Assembly: GCA_903883945.1 (NCBI GenBank)
Contig: CAISCV010000126.1
Location: forward strand, 1-55,109
Length of the DNA stretch: 55,109 bases
Reading direction: 5' to 3'
From: an uncultured Chitinophagaceae bacterium
GTDB taxonomy: Bacteria > Bacteroidota > Bacteroidia > Chitinophagales > Chitinophagaceae
Shown: positions 4,384 through 53,972 of the stretch, one piece after another
How the letters are laid out: each line of letters begins with the position of its first letter
How positions within the stretch are numbered: the first letter of the stretch is position 1
Translations under genes and position numbers: made by a program
The notes under the pieces: generated by a model
Told to the model about the DNA's origin: nothing
Databases searched by the model: none
The model's input: only the letters and a program-made list of their open reading frames with translations

Positions 4384-4484
4384 AGCTAAGGATCTGTATT
4401 GAATAAATATTTATTAGTTTCGGACTATTTTCAATAATAACCAGCTACTAATTACGCCTACCAGCAGAAATATCAGGCATAAAC

Positions 4485-4652
4485 AAACTTTAGTTAGGCA
4501 TAACTAAAGAATAATTACTAATAATTATTTACTTATTACTAATAACTAAACTTTAGTTAGGCATAACTAAAGAATAATTATTAATAATTATTTACTTATT
4601 ACTAATAACTAAAGTTTAAATAGGCATAACTAAAGTTTGTTTATGCCTAACT
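4485..4652. repeat. Array of eight 21-bp units (array 1)
   Basis: Eight head-to-tail units of exactly 21 bp. Units 1-3 are repeated as units 4-6 with one base change, giving a 63-bp higher period; units 7 and 8 are variants. The core is AGTTAGGCATAACT; across the boundary of units 1-2 and of units 4-5 it forms CTTTAGTTA-ggca-TAACTAAAG, a dyad with perfect 9-bp arms. One or two degenerate units may precede it (from about 4443). All six reading frames contain stops within the units, so it is not coding. The rest of the 4301-4837 gap holds the small-RNA candidate and nothing else I recognise. Confidence 0.9.
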
Positions 4653-10759: not shown

Positions 10760-11960
10760 AGAGGGAGCGAAACCGAGGGTTTTGTTGTTTTTAAACAGAT
10801 TGGTAATAGGCGGGCCAGCCATCGATGTTATTTCGATGGCTGGTTTTTTGCAAAATGATTTCGAACTCTTAATCATTTATGGCGAAAAGGAATCGCATGA
10901 GGTAGAAGCGACCTATTTGTTGAGTAAATATCCCAATCTGCAATTAAAAAAGATACCTAGCCTAAGGCGTTCTATCAACCCATTTCTGAACATAGCTGTT
11001 TTTTTCTCTGTCATAAAAATCATCAATTCATTTAAACCTTCTATTGTTCATACACACGGTGCAGTGCCGGGTGTAGTGGGCAGATTGGCTGCCTTCTTTT
11101 GCCGTATTCCTGTTATAATCCATACCTATCACGGGCATTTCTTCCACTCTTATTTTAATAAAGCCTTTTCTAACGCTATTATTTTAATAGAGAAAACGTT
11201 GTCTAAAATAAGTACGGTAATTATTGCAACGAGTAGCCGTCAGTTAAAAGATCTGGTTGATAAATACAAAATTGCACCCCTCAATAAAGTTACTGTTATT
11301 GAATTGGGGATTGATGATGCTTTTTTAGCCGCTTCCTCTCAAGAAGGTACTGCTTCATTTGCAGCTAAATACAAGGTAAATGCCGATACCATTGCTGTTG
11401 GCATCATCGCTAGGATTGTTAAAGTGAAGAACTTCCCTCTTTTTGTGGAGATAGTTGCTAAAGTCTTGAAAAAAACAAAGAAAAAGATTGTTTTCTTTGT
11501 GATTGGAGACGGATATTTGAAGGCAGATATTCAACAACTCTTATCAGACAAAGGAATTGGTTGGAGTAGTAACGAGTTTCCTAATATAGATGCTTCGGTA
11601 ATCTTTACTTCTTGGATATCTAATATTGGTGAAGCGCTTTCTGCTTTGGATATTGTGGTATTAACGTCTAATAATGAAGGAACAGGCTTGTCACTTGCCG
11701 AGAGCCAATATGTTGGTATACCTGTAGTTGCTACCAATGTAGGGGGGGTGCCAGACACGGTTATTGATGGGGAAACAGGTTTTCTTGTTAGTCCGACAGA
11801 TGCAGATATATTTGCGGAGAAACTATTGTTATTAATAGAAGATGAGCCGTTGAGAAAGGAGATGGGGGCAGCAGCGAAAGTATTTGCCAGAAATAAGTTT
11901 TCTAAACAGCAGGAGATAGAGCGTTTGAAGCAATTATATTTGAAACAACTGGAAAAATAA
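10746..11960 (+). CDS. Glycosyltransferase family 4
   Basis: GT-B enzyme of 404 residues. The N-terminus has [12 protein letters not shown] (GT4 glycine-rich loop) and [17 protein letters not shown]. The donor site shows [18 protein letters not shown] and the E-x7-E motif in [21 protein letters not shown]. It overlaps fcl by 14 nt and is followed at 24 nt by rfbB, which places it in the sugar-nucleotide operon. It may transfer the fucose or the dTDP-linked deoxysugar made by its neighbours; which one cannot be read from the sequence. Confidence 0.9.
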
Positions 11961-14638: not shown

Positions 14639-14641
14639 CGA

Positions 14642-14776
14642 AGTTTTAGGTTATAAGTATTAAGTTATACGTTAGCAAAAATTAGTTAGTAAAAAGAGAA
14701 GGGAGGTACTTAATAGTACCTCCCTTCTCTTTTTACTAACGTATAACTTAATACTTATAACCTACAACTTAAAACT
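14642..14776. terminator. Nested double hairpin between convergent rfbA and lysS
   Basis: The inner stem is a perfect 25-bp inverted repeat (14685-14709 with 14716-14740) around the 6-nt loop TTAATA, with A- and T-runs in the arms so it could terminate both strands. Outer arms (14642-14675 and 14736-14776) are also inverted copies, identical except for 7 nt present only on the right. CTAAC at 14736-14740 belongs to both stems. The right arm reaches the first base or two of the lysS stop codon. Confidence 0.9.
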
Positions 14777-25966: not shown

Positions 25967-25997
25967 ATTACTAACCACAATGACAGAATAAAATAGG

Positions 25998-26104
25998 AAA
26001 TATGAAGTATGAAATATGATTTCTACCGGGATTGTTTTTTCAAAAAAAAATGAGTAAATAAAGTATTCAATTACTTCATATTTTATATTTCATACTTCAT
26101 ATTT
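25998..26104. repeat. Long locus-specific hairpin before mqnC
   Basis: Perfect 20-bp inverted repeat, AAATATGAAGTATGAAATAT at 25998-26017 and its complement at 26085-26104, with a 67-nt loop that holds a run of A's. It may end transcription of the MurC-like gene. Confidence 0.8.
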
Positions 26105-26167
26105 CTGACTTTGTATCTTCATGGCAAACTTAACACCCTTACTTTTGTTTCTTTCTAAAAGGAAATT

Positions 26168-28984: not shown

Positions 28985-30277
28985 TTACAGTATCTCCTTC
29001 AAACTATCGGCAACGGCGGCAATGGTTTTATCCAGGTCGTCATAACTGAGGGCATTGTTTAAGAACCAACTTTCAAAAGCACTCGGCGGAAGATATACCC
29101 CACGATTAAGCATCGCATGAAAGAACTTTTTAAACAGTTCATTATTTGCAGCAGCAGCACTCGCAAAGTCAGTAACAGGATGCGCACTAAAGTGAATGCT
29201 AATCATAGAACCCAGGTGATTGATAACATACGGCGTTCCTGATGCCTTCAAAACTTTATCTAATCCCTCTTTGAGATACAATGTTTTTGCATCCAATTCT
29301 TTTAGTATTTCTGGATTGTCTTTCAGGATAGAGAGCAAGGTATACCCTGCAATCATCGCAATAGGATTACCGCTCAAAGTACCCGCCTGATACACATTAC
29401 CCAACGGGGAAACTACTTCCATAATGTGTCGCTTGCCCCCAAAAGCACCCACAGGCATACCCGCACCAATCACTTTACCGTAGGTAACAAGGTCGGCATC
29501 AATGCCCAATTTTTCTTGTACACCACCCAAAGCGAGACGGAAGCCCGTCATCACTTCATCGAATATCAATACAATATGATGGTCATCACAAATCTTTCTC
29601 AGTCCCTTCAAAAAACCTTCTTTCGGTAAGATGCAACCCATATTACCAGCCACAGCCTCTATGATGATGGCCGCAACCTGGTCTTTGTTTTCCTTCACCA
29701 ATTGCTCCACCGCTTCCAAATCGTTGTAGGCACAAGTGAGGGTATCGTTGGCAACACCGGCAGTAACACCCGGCACTGTCTGAATATTGAAAGTCGCCAA
29801 ACCACTACCTGCCTTCACCAAAAAGCTATCAGCATGACCATGATAACAACCCTCAAACTTAATTATTTTGTTACGTCCGGTATAGCCTCTCGCCACACGT
29901 ACCGCACTCATACAAGCCTCTGTGCCGCTACTCACCATCCGTATTAAATCTACATTGGGTGCCATACTTTTTATCAGTTCGGCCATCTTTATTTCCAGCT
30001 CTGTTGGCGCACCATAAGAGGTGGAGTAAATGGCTTGCTCTTGTATGGCCTTGATAACGGGCTCATAAGCATGCCCTAAAATCATAGGACCCCAAGAGGC
30101 GATATAGTCTATATACTGATTGTCATCTGCATCGTACAGGTAAGCACCCTTTGCTTTTTTAATGAAAAGGGGGGTGCCACCCACACTTTTAAAGGCACGA
30201 ACAGGAGAATTGACACCGCCAGGAATAGATTGCTGTGCGCGGGAAAAAAGAGCCTGACTAGTTGTAATATTATTCAT
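28985..30277 (-). CDS. hemL: Glutamate-1-semialdehyde 2,1-aminomutase
   Basis: PLP enzyme that makes 5-aminolevulinate from glutamate-1-semialdehyde, the product of HemA. The 430-residue protein begins with [18 protein letters not shown] and has [29 protein letters not shown] and the PLP-lysine in [17 protein letters not shown]. Full-length match. It is on the same strand as the hemA-hemB cluster but separated from it by accessory genes. Confidence 0.97.
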
Positions 30278-30333
30278 ATTAAGTTATAAGTATTAGGTAT
30301 TAAGTTGTAGGTTTTGAGTATGTGGTTATTTAA

Positions 30334-30642: not shown

Positions 30643-30969
30643 AATTTATGTAAATGAATGAAATTGTAATAGGCAGCTAAGGTAGGCATAATCATTTTTA
30701 TTACATAATGGATTGGAATTATAATGAATAGGAACAGGCATCTAAAATTCAATAAATCAACCCAAAAAGATTTATTCCCCCATAATTAATTATTAGCGGA
30801 GCTTCGTTGGAGAAATAGACTCACTTGTAAAAATTGACAGTGCCTTCTCACAGTCATGTTATTGTATGTTTATTTATTGGATAGGATTGGGAATAGGATT
30901 TGCCTTACGATAAAAATAAGTTGGGCTGATAAAAGAAGATTTGCTGGTTATAAAATTAAATTGCTACCA

Positions 30970-31596
30970 ATGAAAGATGAAATTACACTGCTTCGCGAAG
31001 AAAACAAACGCCTGAATACCATTATTCAGGTACTCACAGAAAAATTGCAAGAGACAGAAATCCTTCTTTCCGCCTACCATAAAAACAACGTAGGCGTAAA
31101 CAACGTTGTGGATGGTATCGTCGAAAATAACATAGGCGTAAGTAACGCTGTTTCCCCTTATGATAAAAATAACATAGGCGTAACCAACGTTGTGGATGGC
31201 ATTCCAGAAAATAAGATAGGCGTAAGTAACGCTGATTCCGCCTATGATAAAAATAACATAGGCATAAGTAACGTTGTGGATGGCATCGTTGAAAATAAGG
31301 TAGGCGTAAGTAAGATTAATATGGGTATACTATCAGGAGAACTGAGGGCGGTTATGATTAAATGCCCTACGCGTGGTCTAGGTACTGCCGCACAAACGCT
31401 AGCGCAGTTGTACTCCAATCCTAAGTGTCCACAAAAGGACTTAATGAAGCTTACTGGATTATCTGCAGATGGGATTGTAAAGCATATCAGGGCACTCAAG
31501 AAGAAGAACCTGATAAAAAAGGTTGCTAATCAAGAGTATATTCTTTCTGATATAGCAATAAAAATGGTGGAAGCAGCGAAGGAGGAAGGTAATTGA
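30970..31596 (+). CDS. Coiled-coil/repeat/winged-helix protein
   Basis: Protein of 208 residues, family not recognised. From the chosen ATG, residues 1-36 form a coiled coil (ITLLREENKRLNTIIQVL). Residues 39-115 are five and a half copies of a 14-residue repeat with alternating forms (NNIGVSNAVSPYDK and NNIGVTNVVDGIPE). The C-terminal 75 residues look like a winged helix (QKDLMKLTGLSADGIVKHIR; NLIKKVANQEYILSD), so it may bind DNA. The frame is open back to 30856, but those 38 residues look non-native. It stands alone, in the opposite direction to the hem cluster. The repeats are also a 42-bp DNA array. Confidence 0.65.
   Translation: MKDEITLLREENKRLNTIIQVLTEKLQETEILLSAYHKNNVGVNNVVDGIVENNIGVSNAVSPYDKNNIGVTNVVDGIPENKIGVSNADSAYDKNNIGISNVVDGIVENKVGVSKINMGILSGELRAVMIKCPTRGLGTAAQTLAQLYSNPKCPQKDLMKLTGLSADGIVKHIRALKKKNLIKKVANQEYILSDIAIKMVEAAKEEGN
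31084..31314 (+). repeat. Coding array of 42-bp (2 x 21) units
   Basis: Five and a half tandem 42-bp units inside the winged-helix protein gene, each starting AAYAASRTAGGCRTAA. Two unit types alternate, giving an 84-bp higher order. One unit (31252 on) carries ATAGGCATAAGTAA, differing at one base from ATAGGCATAACTAA in unit 7 of array 1. Confidence 0.9.
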
Positions 31597-36387: not shown

Positions 36388-36402
36388 TTTCTTAATTATG
36401 AG

Positions 36403-37122
36403 TTATAAATTATGTGTTGCAAATTCATTCTGGAAGTAAGCAATTGCTTTCTTCACCAGATTATCTTTTTCGGGGGTATCAGCTTTAACAATTATATAGT
36501 TACTATAGTTGCCTATGGCCTTTGCAGTTGTATTGCCAATAGCGAAAAGTATAGTGTTTTCTACTACTTTATTTACTGAAAAGAAACTATCTACTGCACT
36601 TGGGCTGAAAAACAAAACCGCATCATAATCTTTACTGATAGGGTGTGGGGTAACCATAGTTTCGTAAACCACCATCTCTTCCAAACCGATTCCATTAGAT
36701 TTCAGCAATTGAGGCAATTCATCTCTACGTATGTTCCCACAAAAGAATGTAGCCTCTTTAGTTCCATTAGTAATCATGCCTTCTGCAAGAGAAAGTGCAT
36801 CTTTACCAGTTCCTTTAATGCTGTTATCCCCAAAATAATCCTTAATAATTGTTTTAGTAGTGCCTCCCATGCAGTAAATATCCCAGGTTGGTTTGTGTCC
36901 CTCCAGACTTTCTATGATTGCCTCGGCAGCATTCATACTGGTAAAAATAATGGTTTGAGGGGTTTCAGCTAAAGCCTTTATTCTTTCTTTTTTATCTAGA
37001 TTAATAGCTACACTCGTATCAATAAAGGACAAGCATTCTATATAAATATTATGTGTTGCAGCTTCTTGCAGCAAGATTGTATCTACTGGACGGGTACTTA
37101 ATATATTGATGGGTCTTTCCAA
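36403..37122 (-). CDS. hemD: Uroporphyrinogen-III synthase
   Basis: Cyclises hydroxymethylbilane to uroporphyrinogen III. The 239-residue protein has the two-lobed HemD layout: ILSTRPVD, IIFTSMNAAEAI (first lobe), FFCGNIRRDELPQLL, VVYETMVTPHPI and VLFFSPSAVDSFF (second lobe) and IGNTTAKAI. HemD sequences diverge strongly, but these segments plus the 15-nt spacers to hemC and hemE make the call safe. Confidence 0.93.
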   Translation of the reverse strand: MERPINILSTRPVDTILLQEAATHNIYIECLSFIDTSVAINLDKKERIKALAETPQTIIFTSMNAAEAIIESLEGHKPTWDIYCMGGTTKTIIKDYFGDNSIKGTGKDALSLAEGMITNGTKEATFFCGNIRRDELPQLLKSNGIGLEEMVVYETMVTPHPISKDYDAVLFFSPSAVDSFFSVNKVVENTILFAIGNTTAKAIGNYSNYIIVKADTPEKDNLVKKAIAYFQNEFATHNL

Positions 37123-37137
37123 TTTAAAATTTACAAT

Positions 37138-38070
37138 TTACAATTTCTGTATGGCATCAATAATGACTTGACCGCCTTGTTCTAATAGAGAATTGGCAGC
37201 TAATGCCCCACCGTTCTCCGCCTCTTCAAATGTGATAGTTTGTTCTATTTCTGCCTTTGCAGAACCATCTATTGCCACCACATTGCATCTAAAATGAATG
37301 GCGTTGTATTTTACTTCTGCCAATGCACTGATTGGGGTTGAACATCCTCCCAACAAAACCCGTAGAAAATCTCTTTCTATCTTGGTACAAAGTGCTGTAT
37401 TGATATCATTAAAGTGCTGGCAGGCATCAAAACTAAATGCATCCCTCTCTCTGCTAACCACCATTATCGCCCCTTGAGCGGGTGCAGGCAACATCCAATC
37501 TAAATCGATACTATTTTCTGGACGAAGATAAATACGTTCCAATCCGGCAGCGGCAAATATGGCTCCATGCCAGTTGCTTTCTGCCACTTTTCTAAGACGG
37601 GTGTTTACATTCCCCCTCAAGTTTTCTATGATGTGATTCGGGTATCGATGCAGCCATTGTGCCTTACGGCGGATGCTGCTGGTACCTATTGTGAGTGGTG
37701 AATTGTTAGATGTGAGTGATTCGCTACTCACCACTGACAACTCACCATTCACTACCAATATGTCCTTATAGCTTGCTCGCTTCAACACCGCACTCTGAAT
37801 AATACCTTTTGGCAATTGTGTAGGCACATCTTTCATAGAATGTACCGCAATATCTATCCGGTCATTTAGCAAAGCGAGGTCAAGGCTTCTGGTAAAGACT
37901 CCTTGCACACCCATTTCGTATAGTGGCGTAACCAAATCTATATCGCCCTCACTCTTTATGTAAACTAACTCCGCAGCATATCCATTTTCTTTTAAAAGAT
38001 CTTGCACAAGTGTTGCTTGCCAAACAGCAAGCTGGCTTTCTCGGGTGCCAATACGAATAACTCTTTCCAT
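37138..38070 (-). CDS. hemC: Hydroxymethylbilane synthase
   Basis: Polymerises four porphobilinogens into hydroxymethylbilane. The 310-residue protein shows RIGTRESQLAVWQA, VHSMKDVPTQLPKG, GTSSIRRKAQW, GNVNTRLRK (cofactor region), PAPAQGAIMV and FLRVLLGGCSTPISA (dipyrromethane Cys). Residues of about 106-127, which include LSVVSSESLTSNNSPLT, are encoded by a 65-bp palindromic element and look like filler in a variable loop. The gene is followed by hemD at 15 nt. Confidence 0.97.
   Translation of the reverse strand: MERVIRIGTRESQLAVWQATLVQDLLKENGYAAELVYIKSEGDIDLVTPLYEMGVQGVFTRSLDLALLNDRIDIAVHSMKDVPTQLPKGIIQSAVLKRASYKDILVVNGELSVVSSESLTSNNSPLTIGTSSIRRKAQWLHRYPNHIIENLRGNVNTRLRKVAESNWHGAIFAAAGLERIYLRPENSIDLDWMLPAPAQGAIMVVSRERDAFSFDACQHFNDINTALCTKIERDFLRVLLGGCSTPISALAEVKYNAIHFRCNVVAIDGSAKAEIEQTITFEEAENGGALAANSLLEQGGQVIIDAIQKL
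37691..37755. repeat. Palindromic element inside hemC
   Basis: A 65-bp imperfect hairpin lies wholly within the coding sequence: GTGAGTGGTGAATTGTTA on the left pairs with GACAACTCACCATTCACTAC on the right (few mismatches), and GTGAGTGA pairs with CTACTCAC around TTCG. It keeps the frame and encodes about 22 residues between the conserved HemC blocks. Confidence 0.75.
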
Positions 38071-39431: not shown

Positions 39432-39588
39432 GCCGTTGGGGTTTTCGCAGAAATCCAACATTCGTCAATACACTGTCATTTTTGTGTCATGTTTAATGAC
39501 AATGAATAATTGATGGCAGTTATTTTTTCAATTAAACATATCGTCATTCAATTGTGAGAGATAAACCATTTATGCTACTTTAACAATC

Positions 39589-39756
39589 ATTTCCATTGCC
39601 CCGGAAATCATTTCCATTGCCCCATAAAATATTTCCACAGCCCTGGAAAACATTTCTACAACCCCGGAAATAATTTCCACAGCCCCGGAAAATATTTCCA
39701 TAGCACCGGAAAACATTTCCACAAACCCATAAAACATTTCCATAGCCCCATAAAAT
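39589..39756. repeat. Array of eight 21-bp units (array 2)
   Basis: Eight exactly phased 21-bp units, each starting ATTTCYA. Most carry the dyad TTTCC-n8-GGAAA; units 2, 7 and 8 have CATAAAA on the right side instead. A degenerate ninth unit follows at 39757. The minus strand is open through the array as a heptad repeat (such as MFSGAME), but I treat it as noncoding. It lies in the divergent gap between hemA and glyA (39388-40044), which otherwise shows only the two promoter boxes. Confidence 0.92.
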
Positions 39757-39965
39757 ATTTGTGGGGTAATAAGAAACATGTTTTTTACACTTTATTACCT
39801 AACAACAGGACTAAAAACGGAAGAAACAAATCAGTTTTTGAAGCATTTATGATTGAAAAAGAAGTAGTATACCAAATATGCTTGTGCAATTAACCAAGTA
39901 AGAGTAATTTTTTAGTACTAAATGAAAGATGCAAAGCCTTATCAACAACAAATAATTAAATTTTA

Positions 39966-40044: not shown

Positions 40045-41322
40045 ATGCAAAGAGATACATTGGTTTTCGACCTGATTAATCAGGAATTAGAGCGTCAGCG
40101 TCATGGTATAGAATTGATTGCGAGCGAGAATTTTACTTCGCTACAAGTAATTCAGGCGATGGGTAGTGTGATGACGAATAAATATGCTGAAGGATATCCA
40201 GGACGCCGTTATTATGCTGGTTGCGAAATAGTAGACCAAACAGAACAACTTGCGATAGACCGTTTGAAACAAATATTTAATGTAGAATATGCCAACGTTC
40301 AGCCTCATAGTGGCGCGCAAGCAAATGCTGCTATTGCATTGGCGGTATTACAACCAGGAGATACAACGCTTGGGTTGGATTTGAGCATGGGCGGTCACCT
40401 TACACACGGAAGTCCCGTAAACTATAGTGGTAAACTATACAACGCTCATTTTTATGGCGTGGTAAAAGAGACTGGTTTGATTGATTATGAGATGTTGGAA
40501 AGTCAGGCTCGTACCTTGAAACCAAAATTAATTATTTGTGGAGCTAGTGCCTATAGCCGCGATTGGGATTATAAAAGAATCCGTGCAGTTGCCGATGAGG
40601 TAGGTGCATTGGTTTGGGCAGATATTGCACACCCTGCAGGTTTGATAGCTAAAGGTTTGTTGAACAGTCCGTTCGAGCATTGTCATTTTGTAAGTTCTAC
40701 TACCCATAAAACATTGCGTGGCCCTCGTGGTGGCGTGATTATGCTGGGTAAAGACTTCGAAAATCCTTTTGGACTAAAAGACGCAAAGGGCAACATCCGT
40801 ATGATGAGCAGCTTGATTGACCTAGCTGTTTTCCCTGGAATACAAGGTGGTCCGTTAGAACACGTAATTGCTGCTAAAGCTGTTGCTTTTGGAGAAATAT
40901 TAACCGATGAATTTTTGGTATATCAACAACAAGTACAAAAGAATGCACAAGCAATGGCTAAGGCATTTATGGATAAAGAGTATCACCTGATAAGTGGTGG
41001 AACTGATAATCATTTGATGCTGATTGACCTAAGAAACAAAAACATCAGTGGGAAAAAAGCTGAGCAGGCATTGGTGAAAGCAGACATTACTGCCAACAAA
41101 AACATGGTTCCTTTCGATGATAAGAGTGCCTTCATCACCAGTGGTATCCGCTTTGGTGTACCAGCTATTACTACCAGAGGTTTGGTAGAAAGCGATATGC
41201 AATTTGTGGTAGACGCTATAGACAGGGTATTGATGAATGCAGAAAATGAAGCAGAGATTGCAGCTGTTAAGAAACAGGTGAACGACTTTATGACCCATTT
41301 TAAATTATACCCAGAGCTTTAA
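40045..41322 (+). CDS. glyA: Serine hydroxymethyltransferase
   Basis: PLP enzyme that interconverts serine and glycine with transfer of a one-carbon unit to tetrahydrofolate. The 425-residue protein shows [41 protein letters not shown] and [13 protein letters not shown] (PLP Lys). Full-length match. It connects functionally to gcvT at 48.5 kb, which also feeds the folate one-carbon pool. Confidence 0.98.
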
Positions 41323-41325
41323 TTA

Positions 41326-41409
41326 ATTGACAATTGATAATTTATAATTGACATGAGAGTGTTTAATTATCAATTGTCAATTATAAATGATAAATTGTCA
41401 ACTGTCAAT
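41326..41409. repeat. Long locus-specific hairpin between glyA and the DUF4293 gene
   Basis: Left arm 41326-41353 and right arm 41375-41409 are inverted copies with a short insertion on the right; both are built of words such as ATTGACAATTGATAATTT. It sits in the 95-nt gap and reaches close to the next start codon. Confidence 0.75.
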
Positions 41410-41417
41410 TTTCAATT

Positions 41418-41855
41418 ATGATACAGCGTATCCAGACAATATGGCTTTTGCTAGCTTCAATTTTTGCATTATTAACACTAAGGGTTTCCTTTTTTGGTTA
41501 TGCAGTTACAAAACCATTAAATGAAATGATTGGGGAAACAAATATTGTTAAGTTCACAGCTTTTAGCAGCCCTACAATTCTAATAGTTTCTGTAGCAGTT
41601 GCTGCCGCTTCATTTGTTGCAATATTTCTTTACAAAGACAGAAAAAGACAATTATTAATCACTAGCGCAATTGCCGTAGTGGCTATAATCAACATCATCC
41701 TGTACTTATCCCAAATGAGCACATTTAAGGAAGGGCAGTACAATATTTCAATAACATCCATTATTACTTTCCTTATTCCCTTGTTTTTGTTGCTTGCCGC
41801 AAGGGGCATCTGGAAAGACGAACAATTAGTAAAAAGCGCAGATAGACTCAGATAG
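41418..41855 (+). CDS. DUF4293 family membrane protein
   Basis: Protein of 145 residues with four predicted membrane helices; it begins MIQRIQTIWLLLASIFALLT, the characteristic start of DUF4293, a family restricted to Bacteroidota and of unknown function. Other helices are ILIVSVAVAAASFVAIFLY, AIAVVAIINIILYL and IITFLIPLFLLLAARGIW. Short hairpin-filled gaps separate it from both glyA and the aminotransferase. Confidence 0.85.
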   Translation: MIQRIQTIWLLLASIFALLTLRVSFFGYAVTKPLNEMIGETNIVKFTAFSSPTILIVSVAVAAASFVAIFLYKDRKRQLLITSAIAVVAIINIILYLSQMSTFKEGQYNISITSIITFLIPLFLLLAARGIWKDEQLVKSADRLR

Positions 41856-41860
41856 TGATT

Positions 41861-41943
41861 AGTGATTAGTTGTTAGTGATTAGTCTTTAAAGATTAATAA
41901 GTTGAATTCAATTAAAAAGATTCTTCACTAACAACTAATCACT
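41861..41943. repeat. Long locus-specific hairpin between the DUF4293 gene and the aminotransferase
   Basis: Perfect 19-bp arms (AGTGATTAGTTGTTAGTGA at 41861-41879, complement at 41925-41943) around 45 nt, with further copies of the same words flanking both arms. Confidence 0.85.
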
Positions 41944-41965
41944 AACAACTAACCACTAAATAATT

Positions 41966-48457: not shown

Positions 48458-49534
48458 ATGATTAAGAATACCCCTTTTACAGAAAAGCACCTGGCACTTG
48501 GCGCTAAGATGGCTCCCTTTGCTGGTTACAATATGCCCATCAGTTACAGCAGCATTACTGATGAACACGCTGCAGTACGCAATGATGTAGGGATATTTGA
48601 TGTTAGCCACATGGGAGAGTTTATTTTAAAAGGAGAACAGGCATTAGATCTTATACAACGCGTTACATCCAACGATGCAGCTAAACTAACCAACGGACAG
48701 GCTCAATACAGTTGTTTGCCCAACAATGAAGGTGGCATTGTAGATGATTTGATTGTGTACTGTGTGGAAGAAAACAACGTGTATATGCTGGTGGTTAATG
48801 CAAGCAATATTGAAAAGGACTGGAACTGGATTAGCAGTTTCAATACCAATAAGGTAGAGATGCACAATATTAGTCCCAAAACTTGCTTACTTGCTATACA
48901 GGGGCCTAATGCGACGAAACTATTGCAGCCTCTTACCGAAATGGATATATCCAACCTTAAATATTACACTTTTGTGAAGGGCATCTTTGCTGGGGTAGAG
49001 AATGTATTGGTGAGTGCTACTGGTTATACAGGTGCTGGCGGTGTAGAAATTTATTTTGAAGACTCCAACAATGCCGCCGATATTATATGGGATAAAATGA
49101 TGGAACTATCTATTAAACCCATTGGATTGGGTGCAAGAGATACCTTACGTTTAGAGATGGGCTACTGCTTGTATGGCAATGATATAGACGACACCACTTC
49201 TCCTTTGGAGGCAGGTTTGGGTTGGATTACCAAGTTCAACAAGGAGTTTAATGGTAGATTATTGATGGAGGTACAAAAAATTCATGGCGTAACCCGCCGC
49301 TTGGTTGGCTTTGAAATGATAGACCGTGGTATTCCGCGCCACGACTATCTGATAAAGGACATAGGGGGTAATACCATTGGCAAAGTAACCAGTGGTACAC
49401 AAATACCTGGGCTAGGAAAAGCGGTTGGTTTGGGATATGTATCTACTTCGTTTGCTCCTGTTGGTAGCACAATCTATATAGATATAAGAAATACACTAGT
49501 AAAAGCAATTGTTGCAAAAACACCCTTTTTGTAG
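48458..49534 (+). CDS. gcvT: Aminomethyltransferase, T protein of the glycine cleavage system
   Basis: Transfers the methylene group of the aminomethyl-lipoyl H protein to tetrahydrofolate, releasing ammonia. The 358-residue protein shows [43 protein letters not shown] and [20 protein letters not shown]. Full-length family match. Stop codon is 4 nt before array 3. The other gcv genes are not in the window. Confidence 0.97.
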
Positions 49535-49538
49535 TCCC

Positions 49539-49706
49539 AGCGACGTCGCTGAGAGAGCTATCTACGTCGTTGAGAGGCTTAGCGACGTCCGGGAAAGACT
49601 CAGCGACGTCGCTGAGAGAGCTATCTACGTCGTTGAGAGGCTTAGCGACGTCCGGGAAAGACTCAGGGACGTCCCTGAGAGGCCTATCTAGGTCGCTGAG
49701 AACTGT
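49539..49706. repeat. Array of eight 21-bp units (array 3)
   Basis: Eight exactly phased 21-bp units starting 4 nt after the gcvT stop codon. Units 1-3 are repeated exactly as units 4-6 (63-bp period); units 7 and 8 are variants. Units contain palindromes centred on GACGTC (CAGCGACGTCGCTG, CAGGGACGTCCCTG). The plus strand is open through the array as a heptad repeat (such as LSDVAER), which I treat as a by-product of the 21-nt period. GC content is well above the surroundings. The rest of 49707-49928 shows no gene. Confidence 0.93.
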
Positions 49707-50115: not shown

Positions 50116-53025
50116 TTATTTCCCCGTCAATCCATTAATAAACGTCTCCACAAACCCTACAATCTTAGCTAGTATCCTGTCACCCGTTTTTTTACGTTCC
50201 AATATCGTTGGTTTCATGCCATCTATCAACTCCAATACATCATCACGCAATGGCTGCCGTTCAGCAAATAGATAACTCTCAATCAACTTTTCTGTTTGGT
50301 CGGCTTTAAGCTTTTCATCTTTTACTATTTCATCAAAAGCCTTTTGTTGCTCAAGTGTCCAAAACTTTTCAAATTCGTCTGGTATATCGGCACTGTCTTC
50401 AATCGTTGGTAGGTTTTCTTGAATGAATTTTTCTATGAGTTCCCGCTTACTTCTTAGCGTTAATTCGCTGCCTAATAAATTGAAAACCTCACGCTCATAC
50501 TGTTTCTTTTCGGCAGGGTCTTTCGATTTGATTTTTACTAGTAATTGAAGGATGTAGGCAACATTTATTTCATCTCGATGTATCAACTCCAATTCAAAAT
50601 CTACATCTTGAAGTATCGATACCTTTTCGGTCTCCTTTTTAGTTGAATCGTACAAGTCCAGATACTTACTTTTATAATCTTCAAAAGCTTGTTCCTCTAT
50701 ATTTAGATGCTCCCAATTGAAGTCGGCAAAGGCTGCCATTATATTTTTAATCCTAATCAGTTCCCTAAACGCTTTTACAAACTCAAATTGTTGGTTTTCA
50801 TCTTCCAACTCATTCACGCTATCAATGGTCGGCGCTATGTTCATTAGTTCCTTCACCCCTTCATTGAATTTCATTACATAATCCTCATAGGGCTTCATGA
50901 TAATTACATCAATCGCGTCCTTATTGCTGAATAAGGTAATGGCATCATCTGTGGCTTTTTTGAGGTTACGGAAAACTACAATGTTACCCTGTGACTTCTG
51001 TTCGTTTAGTATCCTGTTGGTACGTGAATAAGCTTGTATTAGCCCGTGATAACGTAGGTTCTTATCTACATAAAGGGTATTCAACTGCTTGCTATCAAAC
51101 CCAGTTAAAAACATATTGACCACCAATAGAATGTCTATCTGCTTTTCTTTAACCCGCTTAGATATGTCGTTGTAATAGTTGTAAAACGATTCACTGTCTT
51201 TGGTAGAATACTTAGTGCCAAATATCTGGTTATAATGGCTTATGTACTCATCTAGCTTCTCCCTACTATGTTTGTTGATGGTGAAGGTACCGTTATCGCT
51301 CACCACTTCCTTGTTGTTGCCATAAGTCGCTTTAGGTTCTGCCACCAAATCCAAATCGTAGTTATCCATCCCAAAAGCATAGTTGATACCGTTGGCATCC
51401 GCATCATCTTCATTGGTTGCATAGCTGAATATGGTTGCTATCTTTAAGTTATGCTTGCCCTCTAATTTCTTTTTGTGTAGTAGGTCGTAATACTTCGTAA
51501 GGGCATCAACACTGCTCACACAAAACATTCCTGTAAAGGTTTTATTATGGGTCTTTTTGGGGTGTTGAGCTATGATGTAGTCGGCAATCTTTTCAAGTCG
51601 TAGAGGGCTATCCATCAACTCCTTGGTATCAATGTCTTCTACTTCAATATCTATGTTTGTTTCGCTACCGTCCTTTTGTTTGTATCGCCCAACATATTCT
51701 ACCGAAAACTTCAAAACATTATCATCTTTAATGGCATCCGTGATAACGTATTTATGCAAGCACTCCCCAAATAATTCTGTGGTGGTACGTTTACCCTGTT
51801 CGTTCTTTACAGCATTGTCGGCAAATATGGGAGTACCCGTAAACCCAAACAATTGAATGTTATTGAAGAATGCCTTAATCCTGTTATGGGTTTCACCAAA
51901 TTGAGAACGGTGGCATTCATCGAATATAAATACGATCTGCTCGTTTTTAAGCTGTTCCATCTTCTCCAGATACTGCCCTTTGCTAATAGCAGTATTCAGC
52001 TTTTGAATGGTAGTAACAATCAGTTTGGTGTCGTCCGTAAACTGTTTTACCAATGCCTTCGTGTTATCGGTGCCATCAATGCTGCCTTCGCTAAAGCTGT
52101 TAAATTCCTTTGTGGTCTGGTAGTCCAAATCTTTTCTATCTACCACGAAAACCACCTTCTTCACCTGAGGCAAATTCATTAGTATCTGGCTTGCTTTAAA
52201 CGATGTTAGCGTTTTGCCGCTACCAGTGGTGTGCCATATATAACCGTTCTTGGTGCTATTTTTTACACGGTCTATCAACGCCTCTACTGCATAATATTGG
52301 TAAGGTCGCAACACCATTAGAACCTTATAGGCTTCGCTTAGAACAATGTATTTACATATCATTTTGGATATGTGGCACGGCTCTAGGAAATCGCTGGTGA
52401 AGCCATTGAGTACATTGGTCAACCGTTTATTCTCTTTATCCGTCCAGTAGAAAGTTTCTTTAAATGATTGGTTACGGTTGTTTGCGTAGTATTTTGTATT
52501 AACCCCATTACTGATAACGAAGATTTGAACGTATTGAAACAAAGCTGCACTTGCACCAAAGGAGTGCCGTTGATAGCGGTTAATCTGGTTGAAGGCTTCT
52601 TTTAGTTCCAACCCCCTTCGCTTCAATTCTATCTGTACCAGTGGCAAACCATTAATCAGTAGGGTAACATCATATCGGTTCTTATACGTGCCTTCAATGG
52701 TTACTTGATTGGTTACTTGAAACTCATTCTGACACCAGTGTTCGCTATTGATAAACTCAAAGTATAGGTTGTCGCCGTTATCCCTTACGATGTGTTGCTT
52801 TTCTCTTAGGGTCTTAGCTTTCTCAAACACACTACCCTTACTAAGTATATTCAGTATCCTTTCAAACTCATTTTGGGATAGGCTAATGTTGTTATGTTTT
52901 TCTAGTTGACGCTTTAAGTTGCCTATCAACTCCTTTTCATCGTTGATAGCTACCATCGCATAACCCAACCTTTGAAGTTGCGCTACCAATTGTTCTTCTA
53001 ATATTAGTTCGGGTTGCTTTGCCAT
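50116..53025 (-). CDS. hsdR: Type I restriction enzyme R subunit
   Basis: ATP-dependent translocase and nuclease subunit of a type I restriction system. About 969 residues from the ATG at 53025 (a TTG 4 codons upstream is less likely). The N-terminal PD-ExK nuclease shows YDVTLLINGLPLVQIELKRR. The helicase motor has HTTGSGKTLTSF (motif I), FIFDECHRSQFG (DECH, motif II), FGFTGTPIF (motif III) and LLVVNMFLTGFDSKQL with IQAYSRTNRI (motifs V-VI). All key motifs are intact. It begins 2 nt after the Abi gene stop, so the two are coupled. Confidence 0.97.
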   Translation of the reverse strand: MAKQPELILEEQLVAQLQRLGYAMVAINDEKELIGNLKRQLEKHNNISLSQNEFERILNILSKGSVFEKAKTLREKQHIVRDNGDNLYFEFINSEHWCQNEFQVTNQVTIEGTYKNRYDVTLLINGLPLVQIELKRRGLELKEAFNQINRYQRHSFGASAALFQYVQIFVISNGVNTKYYANNRNQSFKETFYWTDKENKRLTNVLNGFTSDFLEPCHISKMICKYIVLSEAYKVLMVLRPYQYYAVEALIDRVKNSTKNGYIWHTTGSGKTLTSFKASQILMNLPQVKKVVFVVDRKDLDYQTTKEFNSFSEGSIDGTDNTKALVKQFTDDTKLIVTTIQKLNTAISKGQYLEKMEQLKNEQIVFIFDECHRSQFGETHNRIKAFFNNIQLFGFTGTPIFADNAVKNEQGKRTTTELFGECLHKYVITDAIKDDNVLKFSVEYVGRYKQKDGSETNIDIEVEDIDTKELMDSPLRLEKIADYIIAQHPKKTHNKTFTGMFCVSSVDALTKYYDLLHKKKLEGKHNLKIATIFSYATNEDDADANGINYAFGMDNYDLDLVAEPKATYGNNKEVVSDNGTFTINKHSREKLDEYISHYNQIFGTKYSTKDSESFYNYYNDISKRVKEKQIDILLVVNMFLTGFDSKQLNTLYVDKNLRYHGLIQAYSRTNRILNEQKSQGNIVVFRNLKKATDDAITLFSNKDAIDVIIMKPYEDYVMKFNEGVKELMNIAPTIDSVNELEDENQQFEFVKAFRELIRIKNIMAAFADFNWEHLNIEEQAFEDYKSKYLDLYDSTKKETEKVSILQDVDFELELIHRDEINVAYILQLLVKIKSKDPAEKKQYEREVFNLLGSELTLRSKRELIEKFIQENLPTIEDSADIPDEFEKFWTLEQQKAFDEIVKDEKLKADQTEKLIESYLFAERQPLRDDVLELIDGMKPTILERKKTGDRILAKIVGFVETFINGLTGK

Positions 53026-53027
53026 AA

Positions 53028-53972
53028 TTATTGCCAAATAGGTTCATTTTGCCAATCCAATAAATTTCCTTTCCCGTCAGAGGGAATACCTAAAAATTTA
53101 ATTGGAACATCAGGGTATTTATTAAACTGCACTTCTAATTTTTGTTTCATTGTATTATCAGGATTCGCCCTTTGCAACATATATTTCAATAAGCACAAAA
53201 AGTAAAACATCCTTTTATTGTTTTCAAATGGCTTGCTTATCCAATTGCCTTTAGGTTTTAGTAACTTTTCTGGTTCTATAGCTAAATCCCTATTCCATAA
53301 ACGGCTATGGTGCGCACAGATATTACGGACATAAGTTATTGTATGAAGCCACGAAGTAAAAACAGATGGGTGCAAATCAAAAAAATCAGCAATCCGTTTT
53401 TTATCAGCATTGTTTTTCAATCCTCTGTATAAATGCGACAATTCACCAACTGTAAGCAATTCAAAACACATCCAACTTGGCGGATTGGCAGGCTTGTGGT
53501 AATTTGTTATGTAATGTTTAATAAATGTTTCGGGTGTCCTAGCCGTTTTAGCTTTCGATATAATTGTTTGAAAATCACCGTAAGGATTAACTAACAGACC
53601 AATTTTATTATAATAAGGGGTTATGAAATGATTTGGGTTATCCTGCCAATGGCTATCCTTATAGTTAAGTGACATTGTATAAATAAATTGGGTTCTAATG
53701 GCTATTTCTATTCTTTCTATACAATCAAAAACCAATAAACGCAATTCTCTATCAAAAGTGTAAGTGCTTATTATCTGCTCAAATAGAATATCAGTATCAA
53801 ATATGTCTTTTGTAGTTTGATAAGGAAGGAAATAGGCACTTAGCCTGTAATAACTAATTTCTTGTAAATAAGCAATTGCTTTGGGTTTATTTGGAAGTAG
53901 TAGCCCCCTACTCTCAAGTAAGGTAATTTGGTCTGAAAAGCTAAGTGGTGTTTTATTAAAAACTTTACTCAT
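53028..53972 (-). CDS. Abi family (AbiD/AbiF-like) HEPN protein
   Basis: Abortive-infection type protein of 314 residues. N-terminus LSFSDQITLLESRGLLL and ISYYRLSAYFLPYQ, the middle FDRELRLLVFDCIERIEIAIR, and the HEPN nuclease motif Rx4-6H in YVRNICAHHSRLWNRDL are typical of Abi_2 proteins, which probably cut RNA to stop phage infection. It sits between hsdS and hsdR and is directly coupled to hsdR, so the operon combines DNA restriction with an RNA-targeting layer. Predicted function follows the family; no experiment supports it here. Confidence 0.9.
   Translation of the reverse strand: MSKVFNKTPLSFSDQITLLESRGLLLPNKPKAIAYLQEISYYRLSAYFLPYQTTKDIFDTDILFEQIISTYTFDRELRLLVFDCIERIEIAIRTQFIYTMSLNYKDSHWQDNPNHFITPYYNKIGLLVNPYGDFQTIISKAKTARTPETFIKHYITNYHKPANPPSWMCFELLTVGELSHLYRGLKNNADKKRIADFFDLHPSVFTSWLHTITYVRNICAHHSRLWNRDLAIEPEKLLKPKGNWISKPFENNKRMFYFLCLLKYMLQRANPDNTMKQKLEVQFNKYPDVPIKFLGIPSDGKGNLLDWQNEPIWQ

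Follow-up and report, generated by a model that had tools for sequence, protein, structure and literature searches.

The window analysed here is the whole of contig C126, 55,109 bp long, from the 4.09-Mb, 314-contig assembly (G000) of a member of an uncultured, freshwater-type bacterial genus. Four tandem arrays of one length class lie in it. This class, called 21n below, takes in any array for which TRF reports, in one row or more, a period equal or close to a multiple of 21 bp. The features that bear on the arrays are:

4475-4648, no strand: array 1, a near-palindromic block bounded by terminal inverted repeats (TIRs), built of 21-bp monomers with a 63-bp higher-order repeat
4475-4496, + strand: left TIR of array 1, AGGCATAAACAAACTTTAGTTA, perfect over 22 nt against 4627-4648
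4627-4648, - strand: right TIR of array 1, the reverse complement of the left one
30856-31596, + strand: ORF with a predicted winged-helix C-terminus (Pfam MarR_2 1.9e-6, HTH_24 2.9e-5)
31068-31313, + strand: the window's fourth member of the 21n class, with periods of 42/84 bp, set in frame within ORF 30856-31596
39588-39760, no strand: array 2, 8.2 x 21 bp with TTTCC-n8-GGAAA dyads, flanked by the glutamyl-tRNA reductase gene and glyA
39761-39800, + strand: weak version of the array-2 family tail (GTGGGGTAATAAGAAACATGTTTTTTACA...)
40045-41322, + strand: glyA, serine hydroxymethyltransferase (Pfam SHMT 7.5e-163), neighbour of array 2
48458-49534, + strand: gcvT (Pfam GCV_T 2.7e-83), neighbour of array 3
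49538-49706, no strand: array 3, 8 x 21 bp with a 63-bp higher period, starting 4 bp past the gcvT stop codon

A gene for a type I restriction enzyme R subunit (50116-53037) converges on array 3. Short spacers at gene ends hold AT-rich repeats of 7, 14 and 21 bp (14641-14776, 25991-26111, 30277-30321, 36394-36425, 37116-37146 and 41324-41419), and the repeat spacer just past glyA has much the same heptamers (AATTATC/AATTGAT) in the relatives G001, G002, G004 and G007.

The original prediction described arrays 1 to 3 as eight units each of an exact 21-bp period, with unrelated unit sequences and dyad symmetry throughout. All three indeed fall into a clean 21-bp register of eight rows, with unrelated units and a dyad in each: CTTTAGTTA-ggca-TAACTAAAG in array 1, ATTTCC-n8-GGAAAT in array 2 and CTCAGCGACGTCGCTGAG in array 3. 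The 63-bp higher period claimed for two of the three is found in arrays 1 and 3; self-match is 0.63, 0.78 and 0.65 at lag 21 for arrays 1, 2 and 3, and 0.89, 0.80 and 0.90 at lag 63.

The near-palindrome of array 1 takes in all of 4475-4648, with 85-nt arms that are 78% complementary, and when extended to 4499/4624 the TIRs match at 24 of 25 positions. A second copy on contig C192 of the same genome (G000:C192:11092-11276) is 85% identical over 185 bp. Both copies span AGGCATAAAC to GTTTATGCCT, sequences found at 11095 and 11310 of L118 in the C192 copy, and they measure 174 and 216 bp; the difference is exactly 42 bp, or two 21-bp units. The C192 copy's own ends match at 12 of 13 nt. The motif AGGCATAAACAAACTTTAGTT, with up to three mismatches allowed, occurs seven times in this genome as against none for a reversed control, and six of the seven lie within array 1 or the C192 copy. 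Two features of a MITE are present, namely terminal inverted repeats on array 1 and its C192 copy, and dispersed copies with defined ends, array 1 being found as two copies whose ends match. By eye, neither the two array-1 copies nor the L149/L287 pair shows a target-site duplication. At the place orthologous to array 1, G001 has a 41-bp array that starts with a related end, AGACATAAACAAACTTT. On L120 (G000:C145), around 1-284, a partial match to the array-1 family comes straight after an array of the GATAGCACTATC family, as if nested.

The other arrays of the window also have relatives elsewhere. Array 2 is matched in 6 of 39 genomes, at G000:C87 and in G001, G002, G003, G007 and G011. The family tail is clear in 7 of 10 members (those from G001, G002 and G007), weak beside array 2, and undetected in G000:C87 and G003; its core, GGCAAAATCTTTTTAACA, has four exact copies among the matches listed in a 13-genome search, all adjoining array-2-family arrays. 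Units show no consistent polarity of decay toward the tail in eight members of the family, and a plasmid search with array 2 as query returned no match. Array 3 has a family copy at G000:C255:19645 and further matches in G007. A viral scan with a 17-mer of array 3 gave a single exact match, on one IMG/VR contig (L336). For the fourth array, other long copies lie on C184 (76% over 250 bp) and C164 (70% over 243 bp), with short matches on C87, C184 and C252. This 42-bp array gives ORF 30856-31596 its in-frame 14-residue repeats.

The period shared by these arrays is a property of the genome. TRF was run on 55 stretches of G000 fetched without regard to arrays (548,954 bases), where it reports 80 arrays, with a best period divisible by 7 in 50 of them and of exactly 21 in 22. 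Within this sample, 28 of the 35 long arrays (at least 80 bp) belong to the 21n class, which as defined includes a few probable coding repeats of other kinds, such as an 87-bp one on L078; in 19 of the 28 the best period is exactly 21, 42, 63 or 84 bp. A first-order Markov shuffle of 604 kb (the unselected stretches plus the window) yields 4 arrays, none of at least 80 bp, as compared with 89 in the real sequence, 39 of them long. The original prediction had held the common 21-bp period to be more than coincidence, and would have given this up for a genome with many arrays of broadly ranging periods. The genome does hold many arrays, but the long ones in the unselected sample are so concentrated on multiples of 21 that this test favours the period.

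Long arrays of the 21n class occur at 5.1 per 100 kb in G000 and at 5.8 in an unselected set from G007; a second G007 set, whose contigs were partly chosen for array matches and which is not strictly unselected, gives 7.6. In other Chitinophagaceae the value is 0.21 per 100 kb, from 3 arrays in 1,399,729 bases over 75 loci (80 named loci minus 5 that contip length marked as members of the genus), and 50 kb of E. coli contain no long array. The arrays of those other Chitinophagaceae are mostly short, and among these too no period is as frequent as 21 (13 of 66), so the tendency toward 21 bp may be older than the genus and the expansion genus-specific. When all stretches from the genus are pooled, some of them selected, there are 134 arrays of at least 80 bp. 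The best period is exactly 21, 42, 63 or 84 in 85 of these, with smaller numbers at 22, 41, 43, 62, 64, 65, 66 or 87; best periods of 31, 52 and 53 do not occur among the 134, and the only array with a period of 32 bp consists of 8-mers. The 111 pooled arrays used below come partly from stretches chosen for matching arrays 1 to 3, so density claims rest on the G000, G007 and Chitinophagaceae density sets. The genus, then, has a class of arrays with a monomer of about 21 bp, higher periods of 42, 63 and 84 bp, and a much higher density than its relatives in the family.

In contrast to the period, the count of eight is not a constant of the class. Counted in 21-bp units, 68 arrays measure between 5.5 and 16.8, with quartiles of 7.2, 8.6 and 10.1, arrays of fewer than five units having been excluded beforehand. 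The upper end of this range may be trimmed where longer arrays are cut off by assembly: of the 17 arrays on 43 fully fetched contigs, 4 lie within 50 bp of a contig end, with 0.7 expected. These arrays tend to be break points in short-read assemblies of such bacteria.

Compared together with 150 bp of flank on each array, the 111 arrays fall into 68 single-linkage clusters, and 51 arrays have no detected relative. As some of the 17 multi-member clusters are joined by their flanks (orthologous places, heptamer tracts) and not by their units, dispersal is evident for a minority of arrays. Within that minority several families are dispersed with common ends. One pair in G007 has 320 bp in common, including 86 and 42 bp past the array, with no alignment outside; three copies in G000 begin with a common leader of 20-24 bp, and the DNA ahead of the leader is different in each. 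TIR-like ends with at least 14 matches are found on 8 of the 111 arrays and on none of 300 mismatched end pairs, a score that arrays palindromic throughout will also reach; most arrays of the class are without strong TIR-like ends. No flank 8-mer is enriched in more than 10 of the 111 arrays, and there is no universal leader or tail.

Y1 transposases were considered as mobilisers of the arrays. Counts per genome are 0-5 in the genus (13 genomes), 0-3 elsewhere in the family (9 genomes) and 0-6 elsewhere in the order (13 genomes); the means are about 2.5, 1.1 and 2.1. Despite the higher genus mean, G000 and G007 have one each, that of G000 being a weak match; a clear link with the arrays is therefore lacking, and no mobilising enzyme emerges from these counts. 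A long multi-copy gene, surface-protein-like by eye (L132 1-1888, with L155, L296 and L141), has arrays with different units near three of its four copies.

Taken as a whole, the best-supported view of the arrays is that they are repeat elements of small size, for the most part non-coding and in some cases at least MITE-like; the account of their amplification, dispersal and age is drawn from sequence. Array 1 is probably, at a moderate level of confidence, a copy of a small non-coding element bounded by TIRs. It would belong to a genus-wide, mostly intergenic minisatellite class whose members share a monomer of about 21 bp and not a sequence, and which would grow by whole monomers or blocks, be copied in a MITE-like way, and take its step from DNA geometry. 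Of the mechanisms named in the original prediction, a replicating element finds direct support in some families, through TIR-bounded copies, common tails and leaders, and slippage-like block amplification fits the 42-, 63- and 84-bp higher periods.

Between species, the places of arrays are sometimes kept and more often empty. Upstream of glyA, an array is present in G000 and in G007, the latter being the only one of 10 relatives with the glyA locus to have one. G001 has none there although its left flank is nearly identical to that of G000; its empty site does not represent a clean insertion difference; about 435 bp of G000 and about 245 bp of G001 are unaligned. A long array directly after gcvT is found in G000 only and in none of 11 other genomes of the genus, a comparison from which G010 was left out because its match is cut by a contig end. 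Downstream of gcvT, G002 has a three-unit 21-bp repeat at 60 bp and G004 a 41-bp array at about 740 bp. Over 101 spacer comparisons, the relative has an array in 3 of 11 cases if G000 has one and in 5 of 90 if it has not (Fisher p 0.04); these comparisons are not independent, as 8 arrays stand behind the 11 cases, with array 3 entering four times.

The count of 3 in 11 leaves aside one locus at which three species have arrays with different units:

L131 (G000, contig C130), 10022-10202: 41-bp array
L157 (G007, contig C126), 4857-5131: 42-bp array
L250 (G006, contig C8), 18376-18513: 41-bp array

These arrays lie 39, 59 and 92 bp, respectively, from the same conserved flank, and the longest blastn matches are in the flank, not in the arrays. 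A similar arrangement occurs in the window itself at 41853-41959, in the spacer that lies one gene downstream of glyA. There, a gene end and a gene start that are conserved in G000, G001 and G007 enclose, in each of the three, two heptamer arrays in inverted orientation at a matching position. Complementarity between the two arms extends over 26 nt with 1 mismatch, 29 nt perfectly and 22 nt with 2 mismatches, respectively, and the heptamer differs in each species (TTAGTGA/GTTAGTG-, AAATATG- and TTATGAG-type). In the orthologous spacer G006 also has a heptamer pair, part of it inside the slice examined; inverted repeats are weaker in G002 and G008, shorter in G004, and not comparable in G012, G011 and G009. 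The heptamer-pair spacer, like the 41/42-bp locus, reads as a place where the architecture was kept while the sequence was replaced.

These two loci, the three-species locus and the heptamer pairs downstream of glyA, are the clearest cases for a tentative alternative. A length-specific, sequence-blind process in this genus might form or retain arrays solely at set length increments, which for the large arrays would be two turns of the helix, with a place keeping its architecture while its sequence is replaced.

A more doubtful proposal is that the arrays are non-mobile and arise locally, through replication or repair that works with a two-turn ruler at hot spots, families being segmental copies. 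The 51 of 111 arrays without a detected relative are consistent with such births, as are the matches confined to the flank at the three-species locus and the presence of one class array inside a gene. However, ends are common beyond the arrays in several families, and rapid divergence of one ancestral array would give the same picture at the three-species locus.

It is unlikely that the arrays are helically phased binding sites, in which rows of dyads on one face of the helix are selected for a regulatory or nucleoid protein. The period equals two turns, and some places are kept between species, with the non-independence already described. Arrays occupy 23 of 172 divergent spacers, a rate twice that of co-directional ones (44 of 661), and 15 of 169 convergent spacers, in raw counts uncorrected for spacer length. 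The gene calls behind these spacers are plain ORFs, from which 42 mostly-array ORFs had been dropped and 5 real-size ORFs holding more than 60 bp of array had been kept. Tests on the units were confined to arrays with periods of 21, 42, 63 and 84 bp that have enough units and are free or nearly free of indels, which gave, out of the 111, 108 arrays for dyads, 72 for coding, and 68 for pairing and curvature. Unit stems are longer than in shuffles (mean 5.4 vs 4.4), with 26 of 108 arrays at p <= 0.05 where 5.4 are expected, and many units hold stems of 6-10 bp; a fixed-window dyad statistic has little signal (13 of 108 at p <= 0.05). Against this, the dyads are no more than ordinary in roughly half of the arrays, with 60 of 108 reaching p <= 0.5 where 54 would be expected. 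No sequence is common to the 68 clusters, the long array is absent directly after gcvT in 11 relatives, and upstream of glyA only one relative in 10 has one. Selected curvature was considered and is not supported, since predicted curvature, computed from wedge parameters, does not exceed that of column-permuted arrays (mean rank 0.47 over 68 arrays). The protein lattice suggested in the original prediction finds no positive support in these indirect tests: the arrays have neither a common sequence nor a common flank motif, and no excess of predicted curvature.

Tandem RNA hairpins acting on the transcript are improbable. The 6-10-bp stems are compatible with them, and a single-stranded DNA fold of array 1 has a stability far above that of its shuffles (z -10). 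Yet variation does not compensate within stems: arms of the same unit are favoured over those of neighbouring units in 28 arrays and disfavoured in 28, with 12 ties (Wilcoxon p 0.18, 68 arrays), in a statistic that misplaces axes in 42-bp arrays and is weak for these. Rfam families and tRNAs were not found in the window, and arrays occur in every spacer orientation, including the convergent spacers.

That the arrays encode heptapeptide repeats, 21 bp being seven codons, is very improbable as a general account. Heptapeptide repeats can be read in frames of arrays 2 and 3, the mean number of open frames is slightly above that of column-permuted arrays (2.42 vs 2.04 of six, 72 arrays), and the fourth array is in frame in the winged-helix ORF. 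However, substitutions have a codon-phase bias in none of 72 arrays at p <= 0.1, in a conservative test in which 7.2 would be expected by chance, and 8 of the 72 have no open frame. Array 1 is among these, with no open frame on either strand over 4485-4635, in line with the stops in all six frames noted in the original prediction. Periods of 22, 41, 43, 62, 64 and 65 bp are not multiples of three. The combination that marks a coding minisatellite, an open frame with codon-phased variation, is thus absent, and coding repeats are ruled out as a general explanation, in agreement with the original prediction. ORF 30856-31596 has matches in 5 of 12 other genomes of the genus, that in G007 covering the repeat part only, and stop codons were counted within the best match in 4 of those 5.

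An origin from triple heptamers was likewise tried and is ruled out in general. The mean autocorrelation excess over 72 arrays is +0.396 at lag 21 but -0.018 at lag 7 and -0.013 at lag 14, and it is slightly negative at lags 10 and 11 too. The 7-bp period of STRR-type heptamer repeats is therefore missing from these arrays, with array 1 as a partial exception: its texture is heptamer-like, with a self-match of 0.47 at lags 7 and 14, and it also matches heptamer arrays of relatives.

Coincidence or a tandem-repeat-finder artefact has next to no probability, for although selected stretches inflate the pooled counts and 21 is also the commonest period in the mostly short arrays of other Chitinophagaceae, the unselected sample and the Markov control stand against it and the arrays are visible by eye in register.

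The best reading remains that of MITE-like minisatellite elements akin to BrickBuilt and PgRS of Porphyromonas, present in unusual numbers. If this is correct, arrays would lengthen and shorten by whole monomers or by blocks of two to four monomers, through slipped-strand replication or unequal exchange. Founder copies may occasionally be copied into new intergenic places, in a MITE-like manner and by a putative enzyme. Old copies would then drift into private sequences. The least certain part concerns the unit length, which may reflect DNA geometry, such that only whole double-turn lengths are made or kept, and neither codons nor heptamers set the step. Periods of 22, 41 and 43 bp here, together with the 22-, 23- and 41-nt repeats that occur in Porphyromonas gingivalis (PMC4596501), point to geometry rather than codons. 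The geometric idea on its own predicts arrays of 31/32 and 52/53 bp at least as often as of 22 bp, and apart from the one 32-bp array built of 8-mers these are absent as best periods; a two-turn unit must therefore be assumed.

Extrapolated from the unselected density (28 per 549 kb), this 4.1-Mb genome would hold about 200 such arrays, most on one length step and many of them unrelated in sequence. If long reads confirm this, the genus would lend itself naturally to studying how tandem repeats come by their unit length. Among the matches listed in a search of the open-licence literature, weak evidence of absence in itself, there was no description of a genus-wide class of 21-bp arrays.

Several known systems resemble the class in part. 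Plasmid iterons are direct repeats about two helical turns apart, a spacing that the arrays share; unlike iterons, the arrays are very numerous on a chromosome and have unrelated units. REP and BIME sequences are intergenic palindromic repeats with Y1 (RAYT) transposases. The arrays share this intergenic, palindromic character, but they form 68 clusters among 111 and not one sequence, and this genome has one weak Y1 match.

Heptamer repeats of the TAACTGA type are described from Beggiatoaceae, Cyanobacteria and some Bacteroidetes (PMC4679880), and an account of intergenic heptamers across prokaryotes leaves open what sets the unit length (PMC6344855). G000 also has 7- and 14-bp arrays (8 and 10 of 89, of which 5 and 8 are intergenic). 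The 21-bp arrays in general differ from these in having no residual 7-bp period.

The closest parallels come from P. gingivalis, which belongs to the same phylum as this genome. PgRS/MITE464, with 41-nt units, and the 22-nt direct repeats of that species recall the secondary periods of 41 and 22 bp found here; compared by description, they are given as a few repeat types and not as a genome-wide length class (PMC4596501). BrickBuilt is described as a minisatellite MITE of one species, with a 23-nt unit, leader, tail, IS5-type TIRs and 19 copies, one of which adjoins gcvT (PMC4596501). By that description, the arrays resemble BrickBuilt in being intergenic minisatellites of variable copy number, with units that have conserved and variable parts, and, for some of them, in having leader and tail segments, TIRs, dispersed copies and places kept in a sister species (PMC4596501). 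For array 1 itself the likeness is one of general anatomy, by description only; its unit is 21 and not 23 bp, and it is not filed as a member. BrickBuilt, as described (PMC4596501), is one family, in contrast to the dozens of unrelated arrays found across this genus with one period and no common TIR. What goes beyond BrickBuilt is the number of unrelated arrays that obey a single length step throughout a genus.
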